Of a stretch of 64,000 bases of DNA, positions 1 to 44,620 are shown piece after piece. The notes beneath the pieces are model-generated. The model was given only the letters and a program-made list of their open reading frames with translations, ran no database searches and was not told the DNA's origin. This DNA is from Pseudonocardiaceae bacterium (GTDB taxonomy: Bacteria > Actinomycetota > Actinomycetes > Mycobacteriales > Pseudonocardiaceae). Where the stretch lies: positions 1 through 64,000 of the forward strand of contig WHTH01000005.1 in the NCBI GenBank assembly GCA_009377865.1, written 5' to 3'. The first letter of the stretch is position 1. Every line of letters starts with the position of its first letter. The translations under genes and the position numbers were made by a program.

Positions 1-245
1 AAGCCGGCCGAAGTCATCGCCTCGTCCAGGAGGGGTTCGGAAGCGAGTGCGCGGGGATCGAGAGCGAGGTCGCTGTCCTTGGTGAACTCCGCCAACCCGA
101 TCGCCGGGGCGTTTCCGGTATGCAGGTAAATCGCCTGCGCACCGATCAGAACGACGGAGTCGAGATGCGGTCTGAGCGCTGCGAGTGCGTCCAGCAGGGC
201 TCTGCGCACGGCGATAAGAAGGTCACTGTCGCCAGGCGCGCTCAT
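1..245 (-). CDS. AbiEii-like nucleotidyltransferase toxin, incomplete at left edge
   Basis: The gene starts with ATG at 245 and runs off the left edge, so only about 81 residues are visible. They contain VVLIGAQAIYLHTG followed by EFTKDSDLALDP. This is the layout of the AbiEii/AbiGii nucleotidyltransferase family: a helix after GA-Q-A, then an acidic metal-binding pair, here the two Asp of KDSDLAL. In this family the enzyme transfers nucleotides to RNA and acts as the toxin of a type IV system. It overlaps the upstream 370-residue gene by 23 bases, which implies co-translation with its presumed antitoxin. The C-terminal half is outside the window, so activity cannot be judged. Family assignment is good; toxicity is inferred. 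Confidence 0.75.
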   Translation of the reverse strand, partial: MSAPGDSDLLIAVRRALLDALAALRPHLDSVVLIGAQAIYLHTGNAPAIGLAEFTKDSDLALDPRALASEPLLDEAMTSAG

Positions 246-1335
246 TGGCTTCCATCCAGTCGAGCAGGGCTTCGGCCTCCGAGGCGCTGCGGCCGGGTCC
301 GGTCAGCAGGTCGACGGCGACTTGACTCGGCGCAGCGACGGTCAAACGGTCGGCTTGTGTGCAGCGCTCGAACACGACGTCGTAATCTGTAGCGGCGAGC
401 AGAACGTTGGCGCCGCTGTCCACTGCGCGCAATCCGAGCTGTTCGGCGGCCTGGTCGAGGTCGTCGACATAGATCATGGCAAGACGAGGCGGCGCGTAGG
501 CAGCGAGACGTTCTGCGGCGAGCGAGCCGGTCACCGCGTAGCGCAGTTCCCGGGACTCCCGCAGCGCATCCAAAACCGTGGGGAGCCCGCGAGGTTGCAG
601 GTAGGCGCCAACCGAGTTGTCCCGCTGAAAGGCGTAGTCCGCACTCCAGCGTTCCAGTAGCCGGCGCCATGCCACTGCCGTGACGGGTCCGCGCCGCTCT
701 CGATCGACAACGCCTTCGGCCTCGAGGAACTCGATCACGCGGTACGTCGCACCCGTCGAGGCGCCCGACCGGCGAACAACCTCCGGGACGGTCAGGGGAG
801 GCGCGAAGTCGACCAGCGCCCGGACCACGCGCGCGGCGGGTGCGCCGCGAAGCGTCTCGCGCGGGCGGCCCGGCCCGCGCCACGGGTCCCGGTCGGTGCC
901 TGTGTCCCGGAGGTACAGTGGCGGCCGTTCGAGCACGACCCGCAGGTTCCCGGTCGCGTCCGCGTAGCAGATCCCACGCTCCTCGAGAGAGGTTCGTATC
1001 GAAGCGCCGAGGTAGCGGGCGACGACCATGGGCACTGCGGAGGCGCCGAGTTCGTTGACGGAGGGCTGCAACCGGTCGAGCATTCCAGGTAGGTCGCGAG
1101 CAGTGATCCGACGCTTGGCATCAACGATCAGCGTCCCTCGGCTGTCGTCGGCTGCGCCGAGCTCGACGACGGCGTCGACCCGCCGGTCGCCGATGACAGC
1201 TTGCTCACGAATCTCGAGCGACCACCCCGGAGGCAGGCGGTCATCGATCAGAGAGAGCGCTTGGCGTAGCACGTCCACCTCTCGCTCGGGAGGCTTCCCG
1301 GGAGAGGTGGCTACGTTGTCATGTGAGGAGTGCAT
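223..1335 (-). CDS. AbiEi-like antitoxin/regulator with a PD-(D/E)XK-like N-terminal domain
   Basis: This 370-residue protein has three visible parts. Residues about 20-135 look like a restriction-endonuclease fold: Asp54 in RRVDAVVEL, then IVDAKRR with Asp72 and Lys74, ending in a GICYADATGNLRV strand. Residues about 160-225 form a winged helix (LTVPEVVRRSGASTGATYRV). Residues 265-365 form a C-terminal domain with LTVAAPSQVAVDLLTGPGRS and an acidic patch, typical of AbiEi-type antitoxins paired with nucleotidyltransferases. The stop lies 23 bases inside the downstream nucleotidyltransferase. The likely role is DNA-binding autoregulator and antitoxin; whether the nuclease-like fold cuts DNA or is a relic is unknown. 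ATG at 1335 is the first start of a long open frame. Confidence 0.7.
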   Translation of the reverse strand: MHSSHDNVATSPGKPPEREVDVLRQALSLIDDRLPPGWSLEIREQAVIGDRRVDAVVELGAADDSRGTLIVDAKRRITARDLPGMLDRLQPSVNELGASAVPMVVARYLGASIRTSLEERGICYADATGNLRVVLERPPLYLRDTGTDRDPWRGPGRPRETLRGAPAARVVRALVDFAPPLTVPEVVRRSGASTGATYRVIEFLEAEGVVDRERRGPVTAVAWRRLLERWSADYAFQRDNSVGAYLQPRGLPTVLDALRESRELRYAVTGSLAAERLAAYAPPRLAMIYVDDLDQAAEQLGLRAVDSGANVLLAATDYDVVFERCTQADRLTVAAPSQVAVDLLTGPGRSASEAEALLDWMEANERAWRQ

Positions 1336-1540: not shown

Positions 1541-2712
1541 TCATCGTGCCCCCGGGGACCACTCCTCGGCGAAGGTCTCCATCTGCCGCAGCACTAGCTG
1601 GGTGGCTTCGGGCTCGGCGTCGGGCGGGTAGTCGTACTTGGCGAGTAGGCGCTTGATGGTCGTGCGAAGCTTCGCGCGGACGTCGTCACGGGAGACCCAG
1701 TCGGTGGTGACGTCGCGGCGCAGCGAGTCCACCAGGCCGCGGGCGATGTCGGCGAGCACGCCGGTGCCCATTTCGGTGACCGCGGACTCGTTCTGGGCGA
1801 CGGCGTCGTAGAACGCGAGCTCGGCGTCCGACAGCGGCGGGCTGAACTGCTCCCCGCGGTGAGCGTCGGCGGTCACCTCCCCGGCCATCTTCACCATTTC
1901 GGCGATGACCTCGGCGGCGGAGAGGTTCTGGTTGGTGTACTTGCGCATCAGCGTGAGCAGCCGGTCGGAGAAGCTCTGCTGGCGCACTACGTTGTGCCTG
2001 GTGACGGTGCGCATCTGCTGCTCGACGAGCCGACGCATCGCCTCGATCGCCAGGTGCGGGTTGCGCGCCTCCTGCATCTTCGCGATGAACGCATCGTCGA
2101 GCCGGGACAGGTCCGGCCGGGGAATGCCGGCGGCCTCGTAGAGATCGGTGATGCCACCGGCCTCGATGGCGCCCGCAGTGAGCTGGCGCAGCACCAGATC
2201 CACGTCGGCGGGCACGGGCGCGCCGCGGGCGGCCCGCTCCTCGGCGTCCCACTTGGCCATCCACACCCGCACGGCCTCGAAGAACGCGATGTCGTCGCGG
2301 TAGTCGTTCACCGCCCCGGTGCCCGCGCACAACGCGTAGAAGCGGGCCAGCTTCGCGGAGGACTTGCGGAAGCGCTCGGCCAGCGTGTCCTACCCTCGTC
2401 GGGCTGGTTGCCGGGCGTCTCCGGGTCGCGCAGGTGGTTGACCGCGTCGGTCGCGGCGTGCAGGAACGCCTTCGGGCCGCCAGTAGCGAGCTTGCTGCGC
2501 CAGTCGTACCCACCGAGGATGACGTCGCCGATAACGTAGTGCAGATCGCGGACGTGGCCGAGCGCCTCGTCGAGGTCGTGGCCCATCGGTTTGTTTTCCC
2601 GGTCCCGCTGGGTGTACTCGGCCAGGGCCTTGTAGAGGTTGTCGGTCAACGGGGCGTAGCCGACGAGCAGCCCGTCCGTGGAGATCGTGAACGCGCTCGA
2701 CCCCGCCCGCCG
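1541..2712 (-). pseudogene. HsdR (type I restriction subunit) C-terminal remnant, frameshifted
   Basis: Two minus-strand frames together encode the C-terminal helical region of a type I restriction motor subunit (DUF3387-like). The first frame, from about 2712 to 2391, reads DGLLVGYAPLTDNLYKAL and ends near NQPDEG. The second continues as DTLAERFRKSSAKLARFYAL and on to FAEEWSPGAR at 1541. Joining them needs a one-base correction near 2389-2393. The helicase and nuclease domains are absent, because an in-frame TAG at 2713-2715 and unrelated sequence precede the fragment. No hsdM or hsdS is present. This is a broken relic of a restriction system, and the surviving piece would have no activity. 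Confidence 0.75.
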
Positions 2713-3081
2713 CTACGTCCAGGACGGGTTCGCAGTGGCCCGGACGAGAATGTGCCCGCCGACGTGCAGGCCCGCGTGCTTCCGGGCCTGTGCCGGATGG
2801 CGCTCGAAGCCGCCGCCCGAGACGCCTTCCTGGCACGGCGCTTCACTGCCGGGGCTGACCGCCAGGAGGTCGAGCGGCAGTGGCAGGAGGCCACCACGCT
2901 TCGGCAACTGCACGACGACCGGGTCGCCTCCACGGAGGCTTGGACCAGTGCGAAGCCCTGGCGAAAGGCGGCCCTCGGCATCGGCAACGCCGTGCACGCC
3001 GGGCTGCGCGGCGACCCTGTCGGCTCGGTCCGAAACGTGGAAGACACCGTGGACGATCTGCTGCTGGCAGGCAGACGATGA
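2713..3081 (+). pseudogene. C-terminal fragment of an AAA/RecF-like ATPase-associated protein
   Basis: The plus-strand frame ending at 3081 becomes protein-like only from about 2740. It contains VLPGLCRMALEAAARDAFLAR, a central AWTSAKPWRKAALGIGNAVHAG stretch and the tail VRNVEDTVDDLLLAGRR. Upstream in the same frame the sequence is only the antisense of the HsdR relic. The helical, Arg/Ala-rich tail with a late NAVHAGL motif resembles the C-termini of actinobacterial AAA or RecF-like proteins, recalled from general familiarity and not from a search. No ATP-binding part is present. It is a 5-prime truncated remnant whose break coincides with that of the HsdR remnant on the other strand. Confidence 0.45.
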
Positions 3082-3168
3082 GGGACTCGACCCAGGTCAG
3101 CAGGGGGTCGGCCACGAGGTCGTCGTCGCCCAGCTCGGCTGGGTGCCCAATGGCGGGCTGCCAGCTGA

Positions 3169-3741
3169 TCAGCGACCTCGCCAGGCAAGCGGGGACGTGT
3201 GCAGGGCGGCGTCACCGATACGGCGAGCGGCGTCGGTGCATAGCGCATCCCGGGAGGAGTCGATCCAGCCTTGGACGCTGGCGTAGCCGGCATCGCGATA
3301 CTCGATCGCCTGAACCAGACATTCGAGCTTGTCGGCGTCCTTGGCGCAGCGCGCCTCGGGCGTGTGCTGGGCTTCGTATTCGGTGACCGCCTCGTGCACG
3401 GTCTTGCGTGCGGCATCGGGCAAATCGACGGTTTGATCCGCGGTGATCGCCTCGGGCGAGGGTTTGTCGAGGTACGGCTTGGCGGTATGCGGGATGTCCC
3501 CTGTTCGAGTCTCCTGCGAGTCGTGCCAGACCGCGAGCAATGCGGCCCGACCAGGGTCGGCGCCCTCGATGGCAGCGATGAGTGAGGCGAGTTGCGCGAC
3601 CCGGAGACTGTGCTCCGCCACTGACTCGGGGTCGCGGACTCCGACATGCCACCAGCCGGCGCGGCGCATCCGTTTCAGCACACCGAGCTCGAAGGCGAAG
3701 GCCGCGACCGCAGTGGCCTGCTGCCCGTCTGACTGGTCCAC
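3169..3741 (-). CDS. HD-domain phosphohydrolase (YfbR/HDDC2-like)
   Basis: The 190-residue protein has the HD superfamily metal site. His in SVAEHSLRVAQLA is the first ligand, AVWHDSQETRTGDIPH supplies the HD pair and the following E-x-x-x-GD, and a late Asp in CAKDADKLECLVQA completes the set. This layout matches the YfbR/HDDC2 subgroup, which includes 5-prime-deoxynucleotidases, so nucleotide monophosphate dephosphorylation is the best guess. The substrate is not determined by sequence. The start is GTG at 3741. It lies between the AAA relic and an XRE regulator on the same strand but is separated from both by gaps, so it is probably transcribed on its own. Confidence 0.75.
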   Translation of the reverse strand: MDQSDGQQATAVAAFAFELGVLKRMRRAGWWHVGVRDPESVAEHSLRVAQLASLIAAIEGADPGRAALLAVWHDSQETRTGDIPHTAKPYLDKPSPEAITADQTVDLPDAARKTVHEAVTEYEAQHTPEARCAKDADKLECLVQAIEYRDAGYASVQGWIDSSRDALCTDAARRIGDAALHTSPLAWRGR

Positions 3742-3839
3742 GGCTGTGAGCCTACCTACCTTGCGGCGAGGCGAAGCGCGTAGCTGATCTCCGACAGCTC
3801 CCGCCGTGCCCGCGCGCTGAGCCCAGTGTCCGCCGCGAG

Positions 3840-4784
3840 TTAGTCGACTTTACCGAAAGCCTCCGACCGCAGGGCGGGGTGGTCGATGAGCAGGCTCGGG
3901 TGGGCCAGCAGCAGCGACCACACCGTGTGGACATTGAGATCAGCGTGGCCAGAGCCGGGATGCAGGCGTGCGAGCAGGTGACCGAGCAGGCGAACCCCGG
4001 ACCAGGTGCGAGGGTCAATCCGCCCCATGAAGCCATCGTCGACTTGCACGGTGTCGATCTCCCCGACCCAGTACGCCCAGTAGTTGAGGTTTGCCTGCTC
4101 TTGCTGGTCGGTGGCCAGGGATTGGTGGACGAAGGTGCGCAGCGGATCGCTGTCACCGCAGGTGGCGAGCGCGACAGCCGACGATCGGACTGCGACCCAG
4201 GAAGTGACGTCATCGGCTCGGCCAGCGTTGCGGAAAGCTCGTCGTTGTTCGGCGTGCATCCAGTCAGCCGTGCTCGAACGACGATCGAAGCCGAGGAGGT
4301 AGATCGCCTGGCGGCGCAACAGAGCGCCCTCGTTACGCGGGTTCGCGTCGGCTGTGACGAGCAGATGATCGAAGAAGCGGGTGCGCTCACGCTCGTCGAG
4401 ACTTGGCTGTGTCGGCACCGGCCCCCGCCGTGTCACGGGCCTGTGCAACGGCAGCAACTGGGCGGGGATTCCGCCGGTGAACGGCCATGTGATCAGGTCG
4501 GCGTGGATTGCGTCATCCAGGCCGCCCAGCGCGATCGGTTCCGCGCCACACTGCAGCAGCTGGGATCGGAGCCTCACCAGTTCGCTGGCTTGCAGGGAGG
4601 TCAGCGGCCGACGGGAACTCTCCCAACCTTGGATGGTGGCCACGTCCACATCGAGATGCTCGGCCAATCGAGCCTGAGTCAACCCGGCCGACTCCCGAAT
4701 CAGCTTGAGCAGGAAGCCGGAGATGACACCCAGGCAGCGTGGCGAACTCTGACCACGACGTGGTGTTCTTCGGCCGCCGACCAT
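3840..4784 (-). CDS. XRE-family transcriptional regulator
   Basis: The 314-residue protein has an N-terminal Cro/C1 helix-turn-helix at about residues 25-65 (ESAGLTQARLAEHLDVDVAT, then IQGWESSRRPL). A long helical region with no enzymatic motif follows, as in actinobacterial XRE regulators that sense small molecules or partner proteins. It is divergent from the operon that begins at 4921, with 136 bases between them, so it is the obvious candidate regulator of the RiPP genes. After its TAA (3840-3842) the same frame stays open to a TAG near 3756 and reads LAADTGLSARARRELSEISY, which looks like a lost C-terminus. The protein may be slightly truncated or the TAA may be an error. Confidence 0.75.
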   Translation of the reverse strand: MVGGRRTPRRGQSSPRCLGVISGFLLKLIRESAGLTQARLAEHLDVDVATIQGWESSRRPLTSLQASELVRLRSQLLQCGAEPIALGGLDDAIHADLITWPFTGGIPAQLLPLHRPVTRRGPVPTQPSLDERERTRFFDHLLVTADANPRNEGALLRRQAIYLLGFDRRSSTADWMHAEQRRAFRNAGRADDVTSWVAVRSSAVALATCGDSDPLRTFVHQSLATDQQEQANLNYWAYWVGEIDTVQVDDGFMGRIDPRTWSGVRLLGHLLARLHPGSGHADLNVHTVWSLLLAHPSLLIDHPALRSEAFGKVD

Positions 4785-4920
4785 CAGACGATCCCGCCCT
4801 ACGACTCTTGAGCTGCGGATATTCGTACCGGCAGTGAGTCCTTCTCAGCCACGGTCCAGCCTAGCGTTCCCACCGGTTACCAAGTGATCGCACTACGCGG
4901 TCAGCAGCAGAAAGCGAGAG
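4785..4920. promoter_or_regulatory. Divergent intergenic region between XRE regulator and RiPP operon
   Basis: These 136 bases separate the minus-strand XRE regulator from the plus-strand RiPP operon and must hold both promoters. I see no textbook -35/-10 pair and no long inverted repeat that would mark an operator. The sequence before the ATG at 4921 has only a weak GAGAG ribosome-binding site. The call rests on layout alone. Confidence 0.4.
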
Positions 4921-5589
4921 ATGACTTGGATGCACGGAGCCGCGTGGAGCACCCGCAGAGTAATGTTCGTCCGGTCGTATCGCGACGTCTCCGGGGAGGT
5001 CGCTCACTGCGTGCACGTGGGGCCGATACAGGGGGCCGAAGTGCCTGCGGGGATGGTGGGCACGTTGTGCGGTGCGCTGCTGCGGTTCGACCGGGTCGCG
5101 ACCGTGGCGCCGGGGGTCGGGATGCCCTGCAGCCAGTGCGTACCGGTCCCGGAGGATGCGCCCCTGTCTGTGGCCCCGATCGGCTATGAGAAGTGGGGCT
5201 GGCCGGTAGTCGGGAGCGCGGATCGGGTGCTGCTGATCCTCGGCGACAGCGCGACGGCGTTGGCGCTGCCTGTGTGGCTGGTCGATGTCGTGAGGCCGCT
5301 GCTGATCGCCCGCGACCGCCCCGCGCCTGTGCTGGTCCACCCGGGCGTCCCAGAGCATCGGATTGTGCTAGTGGGCGAGCCGTTCGGAGCTGCGTTGCCC
5401 TGGCCGGACGGTGTGCACACCATCGGTGGGGCGGTGCCGCTGCCACCCACTGTCACGGCGCTCGGGCAGGTCTGCTGGCAACGGCCTCCGCACGATCCGG
5501 ATCTGGCCACGTGCCGGGAGATTGATGTCTTCGCCGCGGTGCGCACCGCGCTGCGGGACGTGGCCCGGGTCGGGGGTGGGTGCTCGTGA
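4921..5589 (+). CDS. Unknown protein with CxxC motif, first gene of the RiPP operon
   Basis: I do not recognise a defined family for this 222-residue protein. Near residues 49-76 it has a Cys in GTLCGALLRF and the pair MPCSQC, a spacing that suggests a small zinc site. The second half (about 100-215) has alternating hydrophobic strands and the conserved-looking stretches AALPWPDGVHTIGG and REIDVFAAVRTALRDV. There is no signal peptide or membrane segment. The stop overlaps the next start (GTGA at 5586-5589), so translation is coupled to the 90-residue gene and then, 26 bases on, to the RiPP precursor. A role in the pathway (accessory factor or regulator) is inferred from position only. Confidence 0.6.
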   Translation: MTWMHGAAWSTRRVMFVRSYRDVSGEVAHCVHVGPIQGAEVPAGMVGTLCGALLRFDRVATVAPGVGMPCSQCVPVPEDAPLSVAPIGYEKWGWPVVGSADRVLLILGDSATALALPVWLVDVVRPLLIARDRPAPVLVHPGVPEHRIVLVGEPFGAALPWPDGVHTIGGAVPLPPTVTALGQVCWQRPPHDPDLATCREIDVFAAVRTALRDVARVGGGCS

Positions 5590-5852
5590 ACCGCACGGGC
5601 GGGGACTGCAGGCTCAGGGTCGTCGGGTGGGTCTACCTCGACGTCGGCTACACGGTCCGCTGGCGACGCGGCGATCCGGTCGCTCACGTCTTGGTGGGCC
5701 AGCAGATGGACAACCACGGGGCGGTGGGTGTGGTGGACACGGTCCCGGTGGCCCCGTCCGGGTGGACCGACTTCGCCGACATCCGGCAGGTCGGGCAGCG
5801 GTGGTGGCAGCGGCAACGCGCGCAGCGGACGCATGACCGTGTCGCCGGCTGA
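5586..5852 (+). CDS. Small unknown protein preceding the RiPP precursor
   Basis: I place the start at GTG 5586, which overlaps the previous stop by four bases; GTG at 5580 is an in-frame alternative. The 88-residue product is basic and Trp-rich at its C-terminus (RQVGQRWWQRQRAQR) and has a central MDNHGAVGVVDTVPV segment. It has no Cys, signal peptide or membrane helix. No known family was recognised. Its position between the CxxC protein and the precursor, with only 26 bases to the precursor ATG, makes it part of the same transcript. It could be a leader-binding or regulatory protein, but nothing in the sequence proves that. Confidence 0.55.
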   Translation: MNRTGGDCRLRVVGWVYLDVGYTVRWRRGDPVAHVLVGQQMDNHGAVGVVDTVPVAPSGWTDFADIRQVGQRWWQRQRAQRTHDRVAG

Positions 5853-5878
5853 CGTATCGCAAACATGGAGGTGACAAG

Positions 5879-6220
5879 ATGACGACAGGCTTCGACGATC
5901 CGCTTGCTCCGTCCGGGGAGCAGTTCCCGCTGGCGCGGCCTGACACGGCGCCGCCCTCGTGGGACGAGCCTTCGCCGCCCGGGAGCCGCCCGTGGGGGTT
6001 GCGGCGGATGGGTCCGGTGATGACGCCGTCGCGACAGGGACTGGGCTGGGGTTACGACCACGAGCAGCAACTCGCAACCGGCCCGGACGGTGTGGCGTTG
6101 CTCGATTTCGCTGCGGGGCCGCCGACCGCACCGACGACCCAGACGGTCGACGGTGAGGATCCTCCGTCGTCAGAGGACTGGATCAACGACTATGCACCTG
6201 ACGAGCCGATCCCGTCGTGA
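5879..6220 (+). CDS. ATP-grasp-modified RiPP precursor (graspetide family)
   Basis: This 113-residue peptide has the form of the actinobacterial ATP-grasp-target RiPP family. Residues 1-35 are Pro-rich. A leader motif SRPWGLRRM lies at 36-44, followed by a GWGYDHEQQL segment (56-65). The C-terminal core-like tail (about 81-113) carries Thr83, Thr86, Thr87, Thr89, Ser97 and Ser98 as possible ester donors, and Asp91, Glu93, Asp94, Glu99, Asp100, Asp104, Asp108 and Glu109 as acid partners. Asp91-Gly92 is a natural aspartimide site. A strong GGAGGTG lies just before the ATG. The stop overlaps the ATP-grasp start by GTGA. The family call rests on the motif and both partner enzymes; core boundaries and ring pattern are inference. 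Confidence 0.85.
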   Translation: MTTGFDDPLAPSGEQFPLARPDTAPPSWDEPSPPGSRPWGLRRMGPVMTPSRQGLGWGYDHEQQLATGPDGVALLDFAAGPPTAPTTQTVDGEDPPSSEDWINDYAPDEPIPS

Positions 6221-7170
6221 CGGTGCTGATCCTGGCCACCGAGCACGACATCAGCGTCGACCGGGTGGTGCGCGCGTTGGCGGATCGTGACGTGCCGGTC
6301 TTCCGCGCAGACCTCGGCTGGTTTCCGCGACAGCTCACCCTCGACGCCGAGCTCCGCGATGGACGGTGGGTGGGGCAGCTGGCCACCGCGCACCGGGATG
6401 TGGCGCTGGAGGATCTGCGATCGGTGTGGTACCGCGGCCCGTCGGCTTTCGAGTTCCCCGTGACGATGAGCGCCACCGAGCGCCGGCACGCGCAACACGA
6501 GGCGAAACTCGGACTCGGTGGCGTGCTGGCCAGCCTGCCCGTGCTGTGGGTCAATCACCCGAGCCGGCACGCCGATGCGGGATACAAGCCCCGCCAGCTC
6601 GTTGCGGCCGCCAGTGCTGGCCTGGGTGTCGTGGCGACACTGGTCACCAATGACGCTGCGACGGTGCGTCGATTCGTCAGGGATTCCGGGCCTGCAGGTG
6701 TGGTGACCAAGATGTTCGGCGCGCCCGCGATCTGCGAGCAGGGCGGCCGGCGGGTCGCGCTGACCCAACGACTGACCGGCTCCGACCTCGGCGACCTACG
6801 GGGCATCGAGACCACCGCGCACCAGTTCCAGAGCTGGGCGTCGAAACGGGAGGAAGTCCGCGTGATCGTGATCGGTCGGCACGTCTTCGCGGTCGCGATC
6901 CATGCGAACAGCGATGCCGCCCACGTCGACTGGCGGGCCGACTACGCGGCCCTGGACTACGAGCGGATCACCCCACCCGATGCGGTGAGACGCGGGATTC
7001 GTGCCGTGATGGCCGCGCTCGAACTCGAATACGGCGCTTTCGACTTCGTCGTCACCCCCGAGGGCCAGTGGGTCTTCCTCGAGGTCAATCCCAGTGGCCA
7101 GTACGGCTGGCTGGCCGAGGTGCCGCTGACCGAGGCCATGGCCGATTTCCTCGCGCAAGGAGCAGCGTGA
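6217..7170 (+). CDS. ATP-grasp peptide ligase of the graspetide pathway
   Basis: This 317-residue enzyme belongs to the ATP-grasp ligases that join Ser/Thr hydroxyls or Lys amines to Asp/Glu side chains in graspetide precursors. Features of the class are visible: an N-terminal preATP-grasp part with SVWYRGPSAF (about 70-80), WVNHPSRHADAGYKPRQL, a central phosphate-binding segment (GVVTKMFGAPAI), and the metal site FDFVVTPEGQWVFLEVNPSGQYGW near 270-295, with Glu and Asn of LEVNPSGQ as metal ligands. The GTG start at 6217 overlaps the precursor stop, so enzyme and substrate are co-translated. The likely product is an ester-crosslinked peptide. Family confidence is high; the linkage chemistry is inferred from family knowledge. 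Confidence 0.88.
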   Translation: MTVLILATEHDISVDRVVRALADRDVPVFRADLGWFPRQLTLDAELRDGRWVGQLATAHRDVALEDLRSVWYRGPSAFEFPVTMSATERRHAQHEAKLGLGGVLASLPVLWVNHPSRHADAGYKPRQLVAAASAGLGVVATLVTNDAATVRRFVRDSGPAGVVTKMFGAPAICEQGGRRVALTQRLTGSDLGDLRGIETTAHQFQSWASKREEVRVIVIGRHVFAVAIHANSDAAHVDWRADYAALDYERITPPDAVRRGIRAVMAALELEYGAFDFVVTPEGQWVFLEVNPSGQYGWLAEVPLTEAMADFLAQGAA

Positions 7171-8351
7171 ACGACTGGACCGACCGGGCGGCCACGCTCG
7201 CCGACGAGCTGATCGCGGCCGGAAAGCTGCACTACCCGGAGTGGGTCGCCGCGGTCCGCGCGATCCCCCGCCACGAGCTGGTGCCCGTCTTCTACGAGCA
7301 AGACCCCGTCACCGGCGACTGGCTGACCCGCGACGCGACCGACCCCGCATGGCACGACCGCATCTACTCCAACCGCGCACTGTTCACCAAGATCGGAGAG
7401 GCCACCGGCTCGTGGGGCAGGGCAGTGGTGGGGCTGTCGTCGACCAGCACCCCGGGACTGATGACCCGCATGCTGGAGGCACTCGACGTCCACGACGGGC
7501 ACGACGTGCTGGAGATCGGGACCGGTACCGGCTACAACGCCGCGCTGCTGGCCCACCGGCTCGGCGACACCCACGTGTTCTCCGTCGACATCGACGGCGA
7601 CCTGGTCGAACTCGCCCGCCACCGGCTCGGGGGCATCGGATACCGGCCCATCGTGGTCGCCGCCGACGGCGCACGGGGGCTGCCCGAACACGCTCCCTAC
7701 CACCGCGTCATCGCCACCTGCTCCGTGTCCGCCATCCCCCGAGCCTGGCTCGAACAGACCCGCATCGGCGGGCTGATCCTCGCCGACGTCAAGCTATCCG
7801 TCCACGCCGGCAACCTCGTCCTGCTGAGACGCCACGCCGACCGCGTCGAAGGCCGTTTCGACCGCAACTGGGCCGGGTTCATGTCACTGCGCCGGGAAGT
7901 TGCCCGAGCGGCGTCGCCCGTCGACGCCGGTGAGCCCGTCGCTCGTGACCGGCACGAAGCAGTGCTGCGTACCACCGACGTCGACACGCTCCGTCCGTGG
8001 GACAACCTGGTTGCCTGGTTCCTCGCGCAACTGACCGTGCCGACCGAGATCGGCTACCGCCACACCCTCGACGAGCAGACCGGCCGCCCGGCCGACGTGC
8101 TCCTTACCACGGCGGACGGCTCCTGGTGTGAGATCAGCGACCGAACCGACGACGGGTTCCGCGAAGTACGGGAAGCCGGACCCACCCCGCTGTGGCGTGC
8201 CGTGGAGAACGCCCACCAACTGTGGCAACAGCTCGGCCAACCAGGCTGGGACAGGTTCGGGCTCACCGCCACCACCGACCGACAGTGGGTCTGGCTCGAC
8301 GCCCCCGACAGCGACCACACCTGGCCGCTGGATCCTCCGCCTACCCTCTGA
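7167..8351 (+). CDS. PIMT-like O-methyltransferase of the ATP-grasp peptide system
   Basis: The GTG at 7167 overlaps the ligase stop by four bases and has AAGGAG just upstream; the product is 394 residues. The first half is a protein L-isoaspartate methyltransferase fold: the SAM motif VLEIGTGTGYNAALLA at about 114-129, an acidic ribose-binding strand (VFSVDIDGDLVELAR) and a GLSSTSTPGLMTRML substrate loop. Residues about 220-394 are an extra C-terminal domain, as in PIMT homologues of fuscimiditide-type clusters. Those enzymes methylate one Asp of the crosslinked peptide, which then cyclises to aspartimide. The precursor contains a fitting Asp91-Gly92. No transporter or protease gene follows. 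Confidence 0.87.
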   Translation: MNDWTDRAATLADELIAAGKLHYPEWVAAVRAIPRHELVPVFYEQDPVTGDWLTRDATDPAWHDRIYSNRALFTKIGEATGSWGRAVVGLSSTSTPGLMTRMLEALDVHDGHDVLEIGTGTGYNAALLAHRLGDTHVFSVDIDGDLVELARHRLGGIGYRPIVVAADGARGLPEHAPYHRVIATCSVSAIPRAWLEQTRIGGLILADVKLSVHAGNLVLLRRHADRVEGRFDRNWAGFMSLRREVARAASPVDAGEPVARDRHEAVLRTTDVDTLRPWDNLVAWFLAQLTVPTEIGYRHTLDEQTGRPADVLLTTADGSWCEISDRTDDGFREVREAGPTPLWRAVENAHQLWQQLGQPGWDRFGLTATTDRQWVWLDAPDSDHTWPLDPPPTL

Positions 8352-8385
8352 CGACTCCTCTGTTCGTGGGACAGGCGCGGTTCGG

Positions 8386-8949
8386 TCATCCGTCGGCGAG
8401 GACAGGATCGGCGTTGCGGCGAAGCGCGAGCCGGGTGAGCGCCGGGACCGTGTCGACGTCGGTCGGCAGCGCGTCCACCGGCCACCAGCTCAGGGCGATC
8501 GACTCGGTGCTGCGGACCGGGATGTCGCCCGCCGGCGCGCGAACCAGGAACCGCACGTCGAAGTGGCGGGTCGGCACGCCGAGCGAGCAGGTGATCGGGT
8601 GCACGTCGAGATGGAGCGGCTCGGGCTCGATCACCAGCCCGTCGATGCCCGACTCCTCGGTGGCCTCCCGCAGCGCGGCGGACGCCAACCCGGTGTCGCC
8701 GTCCTCGCAATGCCCGCCCAGCTGCACCCAGCGCCCGACCTTGGGGTGCAGCGTGAGCAACACGTGGGTGCCGTCATCCGAGAGCACCAGCGCCGAGGCC
8801 GTGACGTGACCCGGCACGCAGGACCGGGAGCAGCCGTCGGGCCGGGCGGCGAGGAAGCCGAGGAAGGCGTGCGCCAGCGCGCGCTGTGCCTCATCGACCG
8901 GCCGCCAGCCGGACAGCAACCGGACGGCGTCGTCGTGCACCGGCCTCAC
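8386..8949 (-). CDS. NUDIX hydrolase
   Basis: The GTG at 8949 overlaps the fbiB stop, giving a 187-residue protein. The NUDIX box is clear: [24 protein letters not shown]. The core REATEESG is intact, but the first acidic position of the box is Asp instead of Glu. NUDIX enzymes cleave nucleoside diphosphates linked to another group; the substrate here is unknown. The coupling to fbiB is conserved in actinobacteria and suggests a housekeeping or cofactor-related role, which is inference. The longer open frame to 9198 is antisense-like, Arg-rich and rejected as N-terminal sequence. Confidence 0.85.
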
Positions 8950-10322
8950 CGCAGCACCAGCCCGTCGTCGGGATCGCGCGGCGGGCGGGGCGGCCGGCGG
9001 TCGGACGGGTGGCCGACGGCGACCGCGCCGAGCGGCCGCCACCCGCCGGGCAGCTCGAGCTCGGCGCGCACCACGTCCGGGCAGAACAGCGTGGAGCCGA
9101 TCCAGCAGGAGCCGAGGCCCTCGACGGCGAGCGCGACCAGCAACCCCTGCACGGCGGCACCTGCGGCGACGGTGAACATGTCCCGCTCGGCGTCGCACCG
9201 CCGGGCATCGGGGTAGTCGTGCACCCCGTCGGGCACCGCAACGGGGACCAGCACTTCGGGCGCGCTGCGCAGCAGGTCACCGCGAGCCACCCGGCGCTCG
9301 ACCGCCTCGGCTGCGAACCCGTCGGCGTACAGGTCGTCGCGCCAGGCAGCGCCCATCGCGTCGAGCAACCGGGTGCGGCGGACCGGGTCGCGCAACCACA
9401 CGAAGCGCACCGGCCGGGTGTGGTGCGGCGCGGGCGCGGTCAGCGCGACGCCGACCGCGCGGCGCAGCGCCGCCGGGTCCACGGGGTCGGGCGCGAAGGA
9501 GCGCACCGAGCGGCGCAGCAGCAGGGCTTGGCGCCGGCCCTGCTCGATCGCGTCGTCGGTGCCGAGCCGGAACAGGTCCTCGTCGACCGGGCGGACGAGG
9601 TCGGCGGCGCGGGATCCGTCATCGCGGCGGGGCAGCCCGCGCAGCACGGCCACCGGCACCCCGGCCAGCTTGCCCTTGACCAGGTCGGCGGCCGCGGCGA
9701 CCTCGTCGGCCACCGCGACCTCGGTGACCTCGAGCTCGTTGCCGTGCCCATCGTGGCTGCCCGCGTAGCGGTGCAGCACCTGCAGCCCGGCCGAGCCGAT
9801 CGCCGCGTCGGTCTGCCCGAGCCGCCAGGTCCTGCCCATCGTGTCGGTGACCACCACGGCGACGTCGACACCGAATGCAGCCGCCAGCACCGCCCGCAGC
9901 TGCGCGGCGCTGGCGTCTGGGTCCTCGGGCAGCAGGGCCACCTCGTCGAGTGCCACATTGGACTCGTCCACTCCGGACGCGGCCTGCACGATTCCCAGCG
10001 TGTTCTGCGTGATCAGGGTTCGCCCGCGCCGGGCCAGCACCCGCTGCGCCTCCGACTCGACGAGTTTGCGCCGCGCGGCATCGCGCGCTTCGGGTTCTGG
10101 AGGGACCCCGATCAGGCGGCCCTCCACCTTGGACACGATCTTGCTGGTGACAACCACGACATCGCCGTCGGTCAGCCACGGGGCGACGTCGGCCAGTGCT
10201 GCAGCCAGGTCGTCGCCCGGGCGGAACTCGGGCAGCCCGGTCACCGGTATGATTCGGATCTCGCCGCCAGCACCGTGATCGGCGTTGTCGCTCGACCCTG
10301 CAAGCAGGTCTTCGGTGGTCAC
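8946..10322 (-). CDS. fbiB: Coenzyme F420:L-glutamate ligase / dehydro-F420 reductase FbiB
   Basis: FbiB finishes coenzyme F420. The N-terminal ligase domain adds gamma-linked glutamates, and the C-terminal FMN-binding nitroreductase-like domain reduces dehydro-F420. The N-terminal domain (about 20-245) carries [17 protein letters not shown] and [17 protein letters not shown], hallmark stretches of the CofE-type ligase. From about 265 the nitroreductase fold begins with [13 protein letters not shown], and [12 protein letters not shown] lies near the end. The length of 458 residues matches mycobacterial FbiB. The GTG start overlaps the fbiA stop by GTGA and its own stop overlaps the NUDIX gene, so the three genes form one translation-coupled operon on the minus strand. 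Confidence 0.95.
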
Positions 10323-11308
10323 GCGGTCACGCCCGCGAGGTCGAACGCCGCCCGAGCCATCCCGGCCGTCGCGTCCACATCGGACATCAGCAGCGGCACG
10401 GTGCGGACCTCGGCTCCCGGCACCGTCGCGGCGTCACCGGAGTGCACCAGCCAGCCGTCCAGGATCCCGCCGGCGCGGCGCGCACCGTAGTGCCTGCCGA
10501 TCGCGCCGGCCTCGCGGTGCACCCCGATCGCTGCCAGGCACACCTCGGCCATCCCGCGCACCGCGCGGCCGGCGATGATGGGGGACAGCCCCACGACGGG
10601 TGCCGTGGTGTCGCGCAACGCGTGCCGGATGCCGGGCACCGCCAGGATCGTGCTGATCGACACGACCGGATTGGACGGCGCGAGCAGCACGGCGTCGGCC
10701 CCCCGGATCGCGTCGAGCACGCCGCTGGCGGGCTCGGCCTCGTCGGCGCCGATCGGGACGAACGCCTGGGCGGGCAATGCGGCGCGGTGGCGCACCCACC
10801 ACTCCTGGAAGTGCATCGCCCGGCGGCCCGCTTCGTCCTCGACGATGACGTGGGTCTCGCAGCGGTCGTCGGTCGCCGGCAGCAGCCGCACCCCGGGACG
10901 CCAGCGGTCGCACAACGCGGTGGTGACCGCCGACAGCGGGTAGCCCGCCCGCAGCATCCGGCTACGAACGAGGTGGGTGGCGAGATCGCGGTCGCCGAGC
11001 CCGAACCAGGTGGGCTCGGCGCCGTAGCCGGCCAGCTCCTCGGACACCGTCCAGGTCTCGCCGACCCGTCCCCAACCCCGGTCGGTGTCGATCCCGCCGC
11101 CGAGGGTGTACATGCAGGTATCGAGGTCAGGGCACACCCGCATGCCGTGCAGCCAGATGTCGTCGCCGGTGTTCACCACCGCGGTGATCTCGTGATCGTC
11201 GGCCCCCGCATCGGTTGCCTCGCCAACGGCGGGAAGGTTCAGCGCGGCCTTGACCCCGAGCAGGAACCGAGCGCCACCGACGCCCCCGACCAGTACAACC
11301 ACCTTCAC
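10319..11308 (-). CDS. fbiA: F420 biosynthesis 2-phospholactate/phosphoenolpyruvyl transferase FbiA
   Basis: FbiA transfers the phosphoenolpyruvyl (or phospholactyl) group onto the deazaflavin Fo, making (dehydro-)F420-0. I choose GTG at 11308 because it directly precedes [18 protein letters not shown], the nucleotide-binding N-terminus typical of the family; longer frames add only unrelated residues. The 329-residue length is normal. The sequence contains [19 protein letters not shown] and [12 protein letters not shown], characteristic substrate-site segments. It is the first gene of the fbiA-fbiB-NUDIX operon. The upstream gap to the peptidase gene holds an inverted repeat at 11331-11382. 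Confidence 0.95.
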
Positions 11309-11330
11309 GGCCGTCAACGCTATCGCGGGT

Positions 11331-11382
11331 CGTGAGTGGCGATGCGAGTGATAGCTCGTTCCCATCAGCAGAGCCACTCACG
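11331..11382. repeat. Dispersed inverted repeat with CGTGAGTGGC ends
   Basis: CGTGAGTGGC at 11331-11340 is matched by its exact complement GCCACTCACG at 11373-11382, with a 32-base loop. It lies between fbiA and the M50 peptidase gene. The same CGTGAGTGG boundary recurs at 25309-25352 in a longer perfect hairpin, so this looks like a member of a dispersed intergenic repeat family and not a simple terminator. Confidence 0.7.
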
Positions 11383-11388
11383 AGCGCG

Positions 11389-12138
11389 CTAGCGCCAGAA
11401 GAGGAACTCCCGCAGCCCCGCGTCGGCGGCGTCGATGTTCCCACCGACCGACTGGAAGGCCAGCCCGGTGACGCCGAACAGCACGCCCGCTGCGCCCGGG
11501 ATGCCGACGATGATCGCGAACAGCGCCAGCGGTGCGAACGGCCGGACGGTGGCGGCGAACCGGCGCGGCTGTGCGGACAGGTAAGGCTCGAGCGCCCCGA
11601 ATCCGTCGAGCCCCGGGATCGGCAGGATGTTGAGCACGAACGCCAGCAGCTGCACCAGCGCGAGGTAGGACAGCCCGATGGCCAGCCCGGTCGGCAACGC
11701 CCCGGACCCGACCGCGGCCACCAGCAGGATGCCGATCGCGAGGTTGCACAGCGGGCCCGCCAGCGACATCGCCGACTCCACCCCGCGCGAGCGCAGCGCC
11801 CCCCGTTCGATGAACACCGCGCCGCCCGGCAGCGGGATACCGCCAGCCGCCAGCAGCAGCAGCGGCAGCAGCAGCGACAGCACCGGATCGGTGTAGCGGC
11901 GGATGTCGAGCGTGAGGTAGCCCTTGGCGCGTACCGAGCGGTCGCCGCCGCGGTAGGCCACCAGTGCGTGCCCGAACTCGTGCACGCACAGCGATGCGGC
12001 CCAGCCTCCCAGCACGAGCAGCACGATGCCGCCGGTACGCACCGGGCCGGGCGCCGCGACGGCCAGCGTCCCACCCACGCCGGTGGCCGCGAGCAGCAGC
12101 AGGAACAGCGGGCTGGGGGCGAGGTCGGTCCGTGCCAC
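11389..12138 (-). CDS. M50-family site-2-type membrane metalloprotease
   Basis: I start this protein at GTG 12138 (249 residues), because upstream codons have no membrane or protease character. It has an early membrane helix, then the zinc motif CVHEFGHALVAY (HEFGH with catalytic Glu) in the second helix. A later NILPIPGLDGFGAL supplies the conserved Asp ligand of M50/S2P-like enzymes (the N-x-x-P-x-x-x-LDG motif). Such enzymes cut peptide bonds inside membranes, for example in anti-sigma factors. It stands alone on the minus strand between fbiA and the divergent whiB2 gene, as in related actinobacteria. The substrate is unknown. Confidence 0.88.
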   Translation of the reverse strand: MARTDLAPSPLFLLLLAATGVGGTLAVAAPGPVRTGGIVLLVLGGWAASLCVHEFGHALVAYRGGDRSVRAKGYLTLDIRRYTDPVLSLLLPLLLLAAGGIPLPGGAVFIERGALRSRGVESAMSLAGPLCNLAIGILLVAAVGSGALPTGLAIGLSYLALVQLLAFVLNILPIPGLDGFGALEPYLSAQPRRFAATVRPFAPLALFAIIVGIPGAAGVLFGVTGLAFQSVGGNIDAADAGLREFLFWR

Positions 12139-12359
12139 CGGGGCAGTCTGGCAGCGGTGCACGCCGCAGCCGGCGCCAGCAACGATGTCGTTCGCGACAC
12201 GCCCGGGATCCCGACGCGCGACAAATGAGGCCTCGGATGTGCCCGAGATGTTGCGCGTCACGAGTGACACGAGTGTAATCACAGGGGTGTCATTCCTCGG
12301 GGCACGACTCGGGGGAACCCGCCAACTGGGATTCCAGATCGGCGAGGAGGCAGACCGGC

Positions 12360-12701
12360 ATGGACGAGATGAACACGGGCGAGGTGGCCGACCGGAGTGT
12401 GAGCGGCATGTACCTGGCAACCGCGTACGACGAGGCTGGGTCCGATGCAGCGTTCGCCGAGCTGTTCGGCAGCGAACCGGATGAGCAGGAGTGGCAGGAG
12501 CGGGCGCTGTGCGCCCAGACGGATCCCGAGGCGTTCTTCCCGGAAAAGGGTGGCTCGACCCGGGAGGCGAAGCGGATCTGCGCGGGTTGCGAGGTACGGT
12601 CCGAGTGCCTGGAGTACGCGCTGGCGCATGACGAGCGGTTCGGGATCTGGGGCGGGCTGTCGGAACGGGAGCGCCGACGGCTCAAGCGCCGGGCAGTGTG
12701 A
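12360..12701 (+). CDS. whiB2: WhiB-family iron-sulfur regulator, WhiB2/WhmD-type
   Basis: This 113-residue WhiB protein has the four cluster cysteines (ERALCAQTD, then CAGCEVRSEC), the GIWGG turn and a basic tail (ERERRRLKRRAV) that contacts DNA. WhiB proteins bind a [4Fe-4S] cluster and act with the primary sigma factor; the WhiB2/WhmD branch is needed for septation and division. Assignment to that branch rests on position: fbiA/fbiB on one side and DUF3499-manB on the other, as around mycobacterial whiB2. The acidic N-terminal extension (about 50 residues) also fits. ATG 12360 has a GAGG-type site upstream; an internal ATG at 12369 is possible. Confidence 0.9.
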   Translation: MDEMNTGEVADRSVSGMYLATAYDEAGSDAAFAELFGSEPDEQEWQERALCAQTDPEAFFPEKGGSTREAKRICAGCEVRSECLEYALAHDERFGIWGGLSERERRRLKRRAV

Positions 12702-12788: not shown

Positions 12789-15700
12789 GTGGCGCGCAGC
12801 TCGCCGAGGGCTGGTTCAACCAAGCCTGCCACTGCGCAGCTGGCCGCCGTCCTCGGGGTGCTCGTCTGCCACGACGGCGCGCGATGGCTGGAGGAGGCGC
12901 TGGCCGCGCTGCGGGAGCTCACCGCCCGGCCCCAGTACCTGATCGCCGTCGACACGGGTTCGGTCGACTCCACTGCGGAACTGCTCGCCGCGGCGGACGA
13001 CGTGCTCGACGAGGTGCTCACGCTGCCACGGGACAGCGGGTTCGGCGCCGCGGTCGCGGCTGCGGTCGAGCGCGGCGAGCAGCGCTGGGGCGACCCCGGA
13101 CGCTGGGTGTGGTTGTTGCACGACGACTGCGCACCCGAGCCGGGTTGCCTGGAAGCGCTGCTGTCGGTCGCCGAGGCGTCCCCGTCGGCGGCGCTGCTCG
13201 GGCCGCTGGCGCTGGACTGGGAGGATCCGCGGCTGGTCGTCGAGGCGGGTCTGTCCACCGACGCGGCAGGCCACCGCCAGACCGGTATCGATGCGGCCGA
13301 GCTGGACTCCGGCCAGTTCCGTCTCAACACCGAGGTCCTCGCGGTGTCGTCGGCGGGCGCGCTGATCCGGCGTGACGTGTGGACTGCGCTCGGCGGCTAC
13401 GACCCGGCACTGCCACTGCTGCGCGACGACCTCGACTTCGGCTGGCGAGTCAACCGTGCCGATCACCTGGTGCTGTGCGTGCCCGCCGCCCGGCTTCGTC
13501 ATGCCGCCGCGCTGGCGGGCGGCTACCGCGAGCTCGACGCGGTGCCCGCCGGTCGCCGCCGCGCGGCGGACCGGGCACACGGGCTGCGGACCTACCTGGT
13601 CAACTGCTCGACAGCGGCCTTCGTCGTCGGGCTGCCCAGGCTGGTGCTGCTCGGGCTACTGCGCGCGATCGGGTTGCTGCTCGTGCTGCGCACCGGCGCG
13701 GCGCGGGCCGAGCTCGCCGCGCTCAGCTACCTGAGCCGCGGCCGGGGGGGATTGCGGGCAGCGCGGCGTCGCCGCCGTAGCACCGCGCCGTCGCGCGGCG
13801 TGCGAAGTCTGCTCACCAGCCGGCTGACCCGGCTGCGCAATGCCGTCCGCGCGGGTCTGGCGGGTCTGGTCCGCCGCCGGGTGCAGGCCGACGCCGAGCT
13901 GGGCCGGTTGGGGTCGGGCCGGTCGACGTTGGGTCGGCTACCCGAGCCCGGGCCGCAACAGGCCGAGATGCCACCGGCCGACGAGGTCGGGCCCGACACC
14001 CTGCCGGCCGATGCATCGCCCCGGCGGCCGGCCGAGATCGTCACCCAGCGCTACGCCGGGCTGCGGCGGTCGCGCCAGGCGGTGGCCGTCCCGGTTGCTG
14101 GGAAGTCCGAGGACTCTGCAGCCTCCGATGACCCGGCGGACACCGCCGGCAGTCGCCCGCAGCCGTCCCCGCTGCCCCGCGACGGCTCTGCCGTGACAGG
14201 TGCGACGCAGCGCGCGGGGCGGCTGGTCATGGTCGACGTGAGCCCGGCGCGGTTGCTCCGGGAGGTGGTACTCGCCCCCGCCGTGCTGCTGGTGGCGGCG
14301 ACGGCGGTGCTCGCGGTCCTGATGAACCGGGGCCGGCTCGGGCTCGAGCTGGCAGGCGGACGGCTGCTGCCGCCCGAGGGGCTCGGCGCGACCTGGGCGT
14401 CCTACCTTGCCGAATGGCATCCGGTGGGCGGTGGCAGCGCCGCTCCGGCCCCCACTGCGCTGGCCGTGCTCGGCGTGCTCGGTGCGCCGGTCGGCTCGCC
14501 CCGTGTCGTGGTGTCGCTGCTGCTACTCGCGGCGCTGCCGCTGGCGGCGCTCTCGGCCTACCTGGCGACCCGTTCGGTGCCGGTCACCCGCGCGGCACGG
14601 GCGCTGGTCGCGGCGGGCTACGCACTGCTCCCGGTGGGCACCGCTGCGGTCGCGCAGGGACGGCTGGACGTGGTGGTTGCGCACGTCGCGCTGCCGCTGG
14701 TGCTGGCAGGAACCGTCGCCGTGTTGCGAAGCCGCGGTGATGGCCGCAGCGGTGATGGCCTGCGCGGCGACGGCCGCAGCGGTGCGTGGCTGCCGACGGT
14801 CGGCGCCACCGCGCTGGGGCTGGCCGTGATCGGTGCTTTCGTCCCCGCGCTGCTGCTGCTGGTGCTCGCGGCCGCGGTCATCGGCTTCGTGCTCATGCCC
14901 GCGAACCGCGCGACGCTGGGCAAGCGCACCGCCGGCTTGTTCGCCCTCGCGCTGCTCCCGCTCGGGCTGCTGCTGCCATGGCCGGCCGTCGTCGTGCAGC
15001 GGCCCGAGGTGCTGATCCACGGCACCGGTGCGGCGGTACCCGAGCAGTGGCCGGGCTGGACTGCGTTGCTGGCGCTGGACCCGGGCGGGCCGGGTGCCGC
15101 GCCGTGGGTCGGTGTGGTGCTGGTCGTCGCGGCACTGCTCGCGGCGCTGCTGCGCCCGCAGCGGGCGATGCTGCCCGGCCTGGGAGTCGTGCTGCTGGGG
15201 GCGGGTGCGGCAGCGGCGCTCGGATCGGTAGCGGTGCAGCCATTGGCCGGTGGCACCGCCCGACCGGGATTCGTGGGTGCCCCGCTGTTGCTCGCCGCGT
15301 GCGGGCTGCTGTGGATGGTGCTGGTGGCCTGCCGGTCGAAGCCCGCCGTACCGAGGCCCGCCGTATCGGGGCTGCGACGGGCGCTGCCCGTTGCAGCGGG
15401 TGTCGCGGTGGCGACGCTGGCTGCCGGCGCAGTGCTCACCGGTGCGGCGGGGCCGCTCGGATCCGCCTCGCGGCAGCCGGCGGCGCCGGCACTGGCTCCT
15501 GCACTGGCAACCGAGCTGGCCCGCGACGGCACCTCCGTGCTCGTCGTCGGGGACGAGGGCGATCCGGTCCGGCTCACCCGCGGCCGCACTCCCCGCTTCG
15601 GCGATGACTCCATCGCGCCGCTGCAATCGACTCTGGTACAGCTCGACCGCGTCGGCGACGTGCTGGTCGGCCGCCAGCCCGGTCAGGTCGACGCCGTGCT

Positions 15701-44282: not shown

Positions 44283-44620
44283 CTTCGGCGACGGGCCTAG
44301 ACCCGCGCCGCGACCACGTTGTGGAACCGAAACGGGGTTTGAGGCGCGCCGCGACCGAGGGTGGAATTCCGCCGTGGTCAGCGGTGTTGGGATGCGACGT
44401 GGTGGAGATGATTCAGCGCCGACCCGCAGTGATCGGCCGTGCTCCCCGCGGCGCGCCCGGCGACCGGGCGGTCCGTGACGTCGCGTCACCAGGACGTGTC
44501 GTGGTGCGACCGGTAAACTCGACGCCGACCCATGCGGTCCCGGCGATGGATCACCAAGCCGGGGCGCGTCCTGCCAGTGCCTGGGCGGCCAGCCGCCCTG
44601 CACGGCGCGAAGGGAGAGCG
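44283..44620 (+). other. 338-base region upstream of sigR
   Basis: This gap holds the sigR promoter and leader. It includes the SigR-type promoter at 44363-44388 and an upstream in-frame ATG (44546) that could start a longer SigR form. No other gene is evident. Confidence 0.6.
44363..44388 (+). promoter_or_regulatory. SigR-dependent autoregulatory promoter
   Basis: GGAAT at 44363-44367 and GTT at 44386-44388 are separated by exactly 18 bases, the consensus for SigR/SigH of actinobacteria (GGAAT-N18-GTT). It points to sigR, 233 bases upstream of the GTG start. SigR in Streptomyces and SigH in mycobacteria control their own genes this way, so the site fits an oxidative-stress feedback loop. 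Confidence 0.75.

Follow-up and report, generated by a model that had tools for sequence, protein, structure and literature searches.

Loci in which a type I restriction system lies beside a divergently transcribed ATPase gene are the nearest known relatives of the DNA described here. In Amycolatopsis marina (locus L074), the order is hsdR<-hsdS<-hsdM<-X<-|->ATPase, with the following positions in that locus:

1887-5069, minus strand: hsdR
5066-6160, minus strand: hsdS
6153-7931, minus strand: hsdM
7763-9829, minus strand: X
9944-12439, plus strand: ATPase

The mechanical ends of the open reading frames leave 114 bases between X and the ATPase gene. The domains are those expected of such genes: HSDR_N, SWI2_SNF2 and T1RH-like_C for hsdR, N6_Mtase with HsdM_N for hsdM, and SMC_N for the ATPase gene. 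The A. marina X matches no Pfam family, and its matches to the PADLOC models mad2 and MTase_I are weak (near 1e-9 and 1e-8); it may be regarded as an extra gene that is weakly methyltransferase-like. The same plan, with more distant subunits, is found in Actinopolyspora mzabensis (L069, which is one contig with L056, and in which hsdR is cut by the locus end) and in Actinopolymorpha rutila (L143); the protein R_143 was counted as HsdR solely through a 27% HsdR match, and a 469-aa protein (R_69), homologous to the stretch matched by HsdS, is probably a specificity subunit. The X-hsdM part is also divergent from the ATPase gene in L057 and L061.

The ATPase is SMC/Rad50-like. A full-length relative carries the Pfam domains SMC_N, AAA_21 and AAA_23, and three relatives have a CPVCG motif in the middle of the protein, which we take to be zinc-hook-like. 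In the parts of the literature available, no description was found of a type I locus paired with a divergent SMC/Rad50-like ATPase gene. MADS is a described system with partial similarity at the level of models: the best PADLOC match of an intact ATPase relative is mad3 (4.3e-24), and HsdM and X also match mad2. However, HsdM matches the models of ordinary type I subunits much more strongly, HsdR has no mad match, and the pieces present in our DNA match none of the PADLOC mad models.

The window (the whole 64 kb stretch of DNA that was analysed) contains an HsdR of the same family as that of A. marina (76% DNA identity over 1.1 kb) and an ATPase of the same family, in the same relative orientation, but both hsdR and the ATPase gene lack their front parts, and X, hsdM and hsdS are missing. 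The spot represents ordinary decay of a type I restriction locus, and is very probably the scar of a deletion of about 9 kb in an accessory type I locus with a divergent ATPase gene.

The two relics and their surroundings

The minus strand was read over 1300-2760 and the plus strand over 2640-3150. The features, in window coordinates, are:

3-1335, minus strand: AbiE-like pair (an AbiEi-like gene, preceded at the contig end by the start of an AbiEii-like one; Pfam AbiEi_2, 2.6e-05); context, outside the scar
1541-2388 (upper boundary approximate), minus strand: C-terminal part of the hsdR relic, in one frame (T1RH-like_C), matched by Pfam PF11867, PADLOC REase_I and A. marina HsdR
2389-2677, minus strand: upstream piece of the hsdR relic, in the other frame, starting at about residue 683 of A. 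marina HsdR; nuclease and helicase domains absent
2674-2678 (conservatively 2674-2691), no strand: putative deletion junction where hsdR meets the ATPase gene, placed by aligning each side with L026, L027 and L074
2678-2742, plus strand: first piece of the ATPase relic, A. marina residues from 693, preceding a frame change near 2741
2743-3081, plus strand: C-terminal piece of the ATPase relic, 44% identical to A. marina residues 715-831; ATP-binding part absent

The HsdR relic occupies the minus strand between about 2677 and 1541, with a change of frame near 2390. Its C-terminal T1RH-like domain, which marks it as a type I HsdR, is recognised both by Pfam T1RH-like_C (PF11867; 2332-1541, profile 79-328, 3.1e-90) and by PADLOC REase_I (1029 long), which gives one match for each piece (profile 775-1024 at 5.7e-53 and 672-752 at 1.5e-5); the upstream piece aligns with T1RH-like_C only weakly (profile 4-60, 0.01, under the Pfam cut-off). 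These matches, together with the intact relative in A. marina, support the original view that a type I restriction locus was formerly present. The intact HsdR of A. marina has 1060 aa, of which residues 683-1056 remain in the window, in pieces that are 56% and 80% identical, the latter being the C-terminal piece (residues 782-1056), which is open over 263 codons; residues 1-682, which hold HSDR_N and SWI2_SNF2 and hence the nuclease and helicase domains, are missing in the window.

The ATPase relic (2678-3081) corresponds to residues 693-831 of the 831-aa A. marina protein, also in two frames, with both pieces 44% identical to it; the C-terminal piece reaches 54% with genome G133 and 52% with Pseudonocardia asaccharolytica DSM 44247 (G180). 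The first piece has 28.5 bits, a BLAST score obtained jointly with the C-terminal piece, and alone was unreported in a later translated search of the window. No family model recognises the relic itself (a Pfam match at chance level, 0.15; no match from NCBIfam or PADLOC), so it is identified via its full-length relatives, to whose 831-aa A. marina member it is homologous. At E<=0.001 it has matches in 35 of the 249 family genomes, counting the window's own, and the stronger of these lie mostly in open frames of roughly 810-890 codons. The regions SMC_N, AAA_21 and AAA_23, which bind ATP, end by A. marina residue 676 and are missing in the window, which keeps residue 693 onward. An earlier label for this relic, AAA-type, is corrected here to SMC/Rad50-like.

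The two relics meet at about 2674-2678. DNA similarity of the window hsdR to genome G089 (78%), to P. asaccharolytica and to contig C85 of the window's own genome stops at 2676-2677, while the ATPase frame begins at 2675-2678 and translated similarity to the A. marina ATPase starts at 2678, with the preceding residue fitting too. The conservative interval, 2674-2691, is given because the translated alignment of the G089 HsdR extends to 2691, probably by chance. The head-to-head arrangement, HsdR on the minus strand and ATPase on the plus strand, is thus as had been proposed; the junction lies slightly to the left of the 2690-2740 first assigned to it, and the losses, thought to fall within about 50 bases of each other, leave no such gap, as the pieces abut and have at most a few bases in common.

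On the side of the contig end, window positions 1-132 overlap exactly, over 132 bases, with the start of contig C76, onto which the second gene of the AbiE-like pair continues; this gene, presumably AbiEii-like, has no Pfam match. Another hsdR relic of the same genome (L159, on contig C16, 6115-7371, minus strand) forms an in-frame fusion with an AbiEi-like gene that is itself truncated, so that two of this genome's hsdR relics have an AbiE-like pair next to them; L159 also has another short piece of hsdR at 15476-15616. On the other side (3143-8341) are an HD-domain gene, an MvdD-type ATP-grasp gene and a PCMT-like methyltransferase gene. The parts 3143-3291, 6616-7617 and 7798-8341 recur elsewhere in the same-genus genome G037 (L161 9493-11165), in a copy placed between the equivalents of window positions 44289 and 44363, and this second location suggests that the stretch is a mobile cassette.

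The ATPase gene with and without type I genes

A pattern-based scan of one genome per species yielded at least 79 ATPase loci (the best 80 were kept), of which 78 were examined, a short Acinetobacter match (L147) being left out. Any match to hsdM, hsdS, hsdR or X was present at 7 of the 78, and no restriction gene was matched by the queries used at 55 of the 62 loci with at least 9 kb upstream; the ATPase gene thus often lives without hsdM, hsdS, hsdR and X. From the other direction, the ATPase is present at 2 of 19 hsdR-related loci, which have short flanks. Since G089 (L027, 18 kb) and contig C85 (L029, 12 kb) carry X-hsdM-hsdS-hsdR without an ATPase gene in those stretches, the partnership, loose by the counts above, is optional. 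Other positions also occur: in G189 (L055) the ATPase gene is downstream on the same strand, and in G047 (L022) an ATPase piece is in a like position.

Origin and age of the scar

Carried over to L074, the window's two truncation points are near 3027 and 12020. As about 9.0 kb of L074 separates points which abut in the window, one deletion explains the scar. The ancestral locus would have had an X-hsdM-hsdS-hsdR operon on the minus strand and an SMC/Rad50-like ATPase gene divergent from it on the plus strand. A deletion of about 9 kb, as measured on the A. marina locus, would have brought a point midway in hsdR up against the final sixth of the ATPase gene. The whole of X, hsdM and hsdS would have gone, together with the promoter region that the two sides shared and the stretches coding for the HsdR nuclease and helicase and for ATP binding by the ATPase. 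We infer that this was a single event, of the end-joining type with little homology. Each leftover also carries a frame change, and probably neither does anything, which would make the scar one without function. A single event taking the front parts of both genes, as first suggested, fits the intact divergent order in A. marina. The accompanying loss of hsdM and hsdS is supported: both lie between hsdR and the ATPase gene in L074, queries with HsdM, HsdS and X gave no match anywhere in the 64 kb window (E<=1e-4), and X can be added to what was lost.

Comparison with relatives carrying an intact locus had been recommended, and L074 does give the predicted ancestral order, from a relative more distant than a strain with the same site. 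As the ATPase relic is only 44% identical to the A. marina protein, L074 serves as a model of the ancestor and is no near copy of it. No intact copy at the window site was found in the one other same-genus genome compared, which has no ATPase match at E<=0.001 and whose hsdR is only 69% identical in DNA. When the junction itself was sought in the 249 family genomes, no strong hsdR match among those listed continued beyond query position 1139 (window 2678); a weak match in G057 spans the join (query 1072-1169, 72%, 5e-5), and its size is that of many chance-like matches listed. Fragments lying in separate loci of close relatives would have told against this reading; among the genomes compared, the P. 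asaccharolytica relics and the intact A. marina pair each form one locus.

The P. asaccharolytica case (L026/L144) is the most similar to the window: the same two genes are truncated head to head and abut, at about 8368-8382 of L026. In A. marina numbering, its HsdR remnant starts from about 364-368 and its ATPase remnant from 553, so that its hsdR remnant is longer than the window's by about 0.9-1 kb and its ATPase remnant by about 0.4 kb, with roughly 7.6 kb missing (reckoned by hand on L074). Its flanks are unrelated to those of the window and it has further internal damage, about 73 residues of hsdR being lost along with a frame change. In G116 (L065), hsdM, in place of hsdR, faces an ATPase of the same family: the truncated ATPase begins at residue 399 as numbered in A. 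mzabensis, and about 30 bases separate it from hsdM residue 214 as numbered in A. rutila. Further on come a helicase gene that is Schlafen-like and a piece resembling HsdR (A. rutila residues 714-1018). This helicase gene, of Schlafen group 3, occupies L065 13141-15039, between the truncated hsdM and the HsdR-like piece. The head-to-head junctions of the window, P. asaccharolytica and G116 differ, and G002 (L020), in which a piece of HsdR begins at G089 residue 576 and part of X lies about 250 bases away, is a fourth case. Other shortened ATPase genes (L113, L134, L145, L146) have no adjoining restriction genes by the queries used; that of L145 sits in an 888-codon open frame and may be unshortened. 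An ATPase gene of Pseudonocardia endophytica (L160 7742-9394) lacks its middle part.

The changes specific to the window hsdR fall on codon positions 1, 2 and 3 as 16/13/41 in 275 codons, and the same codons give 14/7/39 for the intact G089 and 19/14/44 for A. marina. Because these counts are so close, the piece appears to have evolved much like a working gene and the loss is probably recent. When only the 144 codons that P. asaccharolytica also retains are counted, the window has 7/2/12, G089 6/3/17, A. marina 8/5/13 and P. asaccharolytica 7/8/2; in these small numbers the P. asaccharolytica piece looks relaxed.

It could be argued that the window decayed in steps, by two or more overlapping deletions, perhaps from a scar like that of P. 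asaccharolytica which was later enlarged. The P. asaccharolytica scar, which keeps more of both genes and has been damaged further, could nest inside that of the window; one deletion looks the same as several overlapping ones; and the window hsdR is closest to P. asaccharolytica at silent sites (dS of 0.40 over 144 codons, against 0.78 for G089 and 0.86 for A. marina over 275 codons), which leaves some room for an older event common to both. However, the two loci have no DNA match outside the relics beyond one chance-like stretch of 37 bases, none of four neighbour proteins of the window was found in L026, and the codon-position patterns differ, with small counts, as described above. The unrelated flanks and these differing patterns favour independent deletions, such that the two scars likely arose separately and stepwise decay, while deserving of serious thought, is unlikely. 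The 263 open codons and the constrained look of their codon positions might also be taken as a sign that the C-terminal piece of HsdR was kept for a function, e.g., as a decoy subunit; yet the constraint may all predate the loss and the window retains neither an S nor an M subunit, which makes a retained function hardly credible.

The two remaining explanations concern the join itself. The variable neighbourhood, with parts of 3143-8341 elsewhere in G037, might suggest unrelated truncated genes united by an inversion or insertion, but their order and orientation agree with the intact locus of relatives and need no inversion, so that a rearrangement of this kind is very improbable. A misjoining of separate relics during assembly is, if anything, still harder to accept: the contig ends 2.7 kb from the junction, and the genome is a draft (121 contigs, 4.45% contamination), but the same pair in the same orientation exists in a genome of another genus, the intact locus predicts the arrangement, and the G+C content shows nothing unusual at the join (69% and 71%). 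A deletion in the type I and ATPase locus is therefore preferred.

Loss of type I loci

Such loci may have been lost repeatedly, by deletions across the divergent promoter which take modification, restriction and ATPase together. Perhaps a promoter-spanning deletion is even a recurrent and selected exit, in that one cut takes modification, nuclease and ATPase, where loss of modification alone would kill; we consider this rather doubtful. For the window's genome, the scar explains the loss of one restriction system. More generally, some actinobacterial type I loci have as partners an SMC/Rad50-like ATPase gene divergent from them and an additional gene that is methyltransferase-like, and the differently cut scars can be seen as natural deletions with which to ask which combinations of losses cells tolerate.
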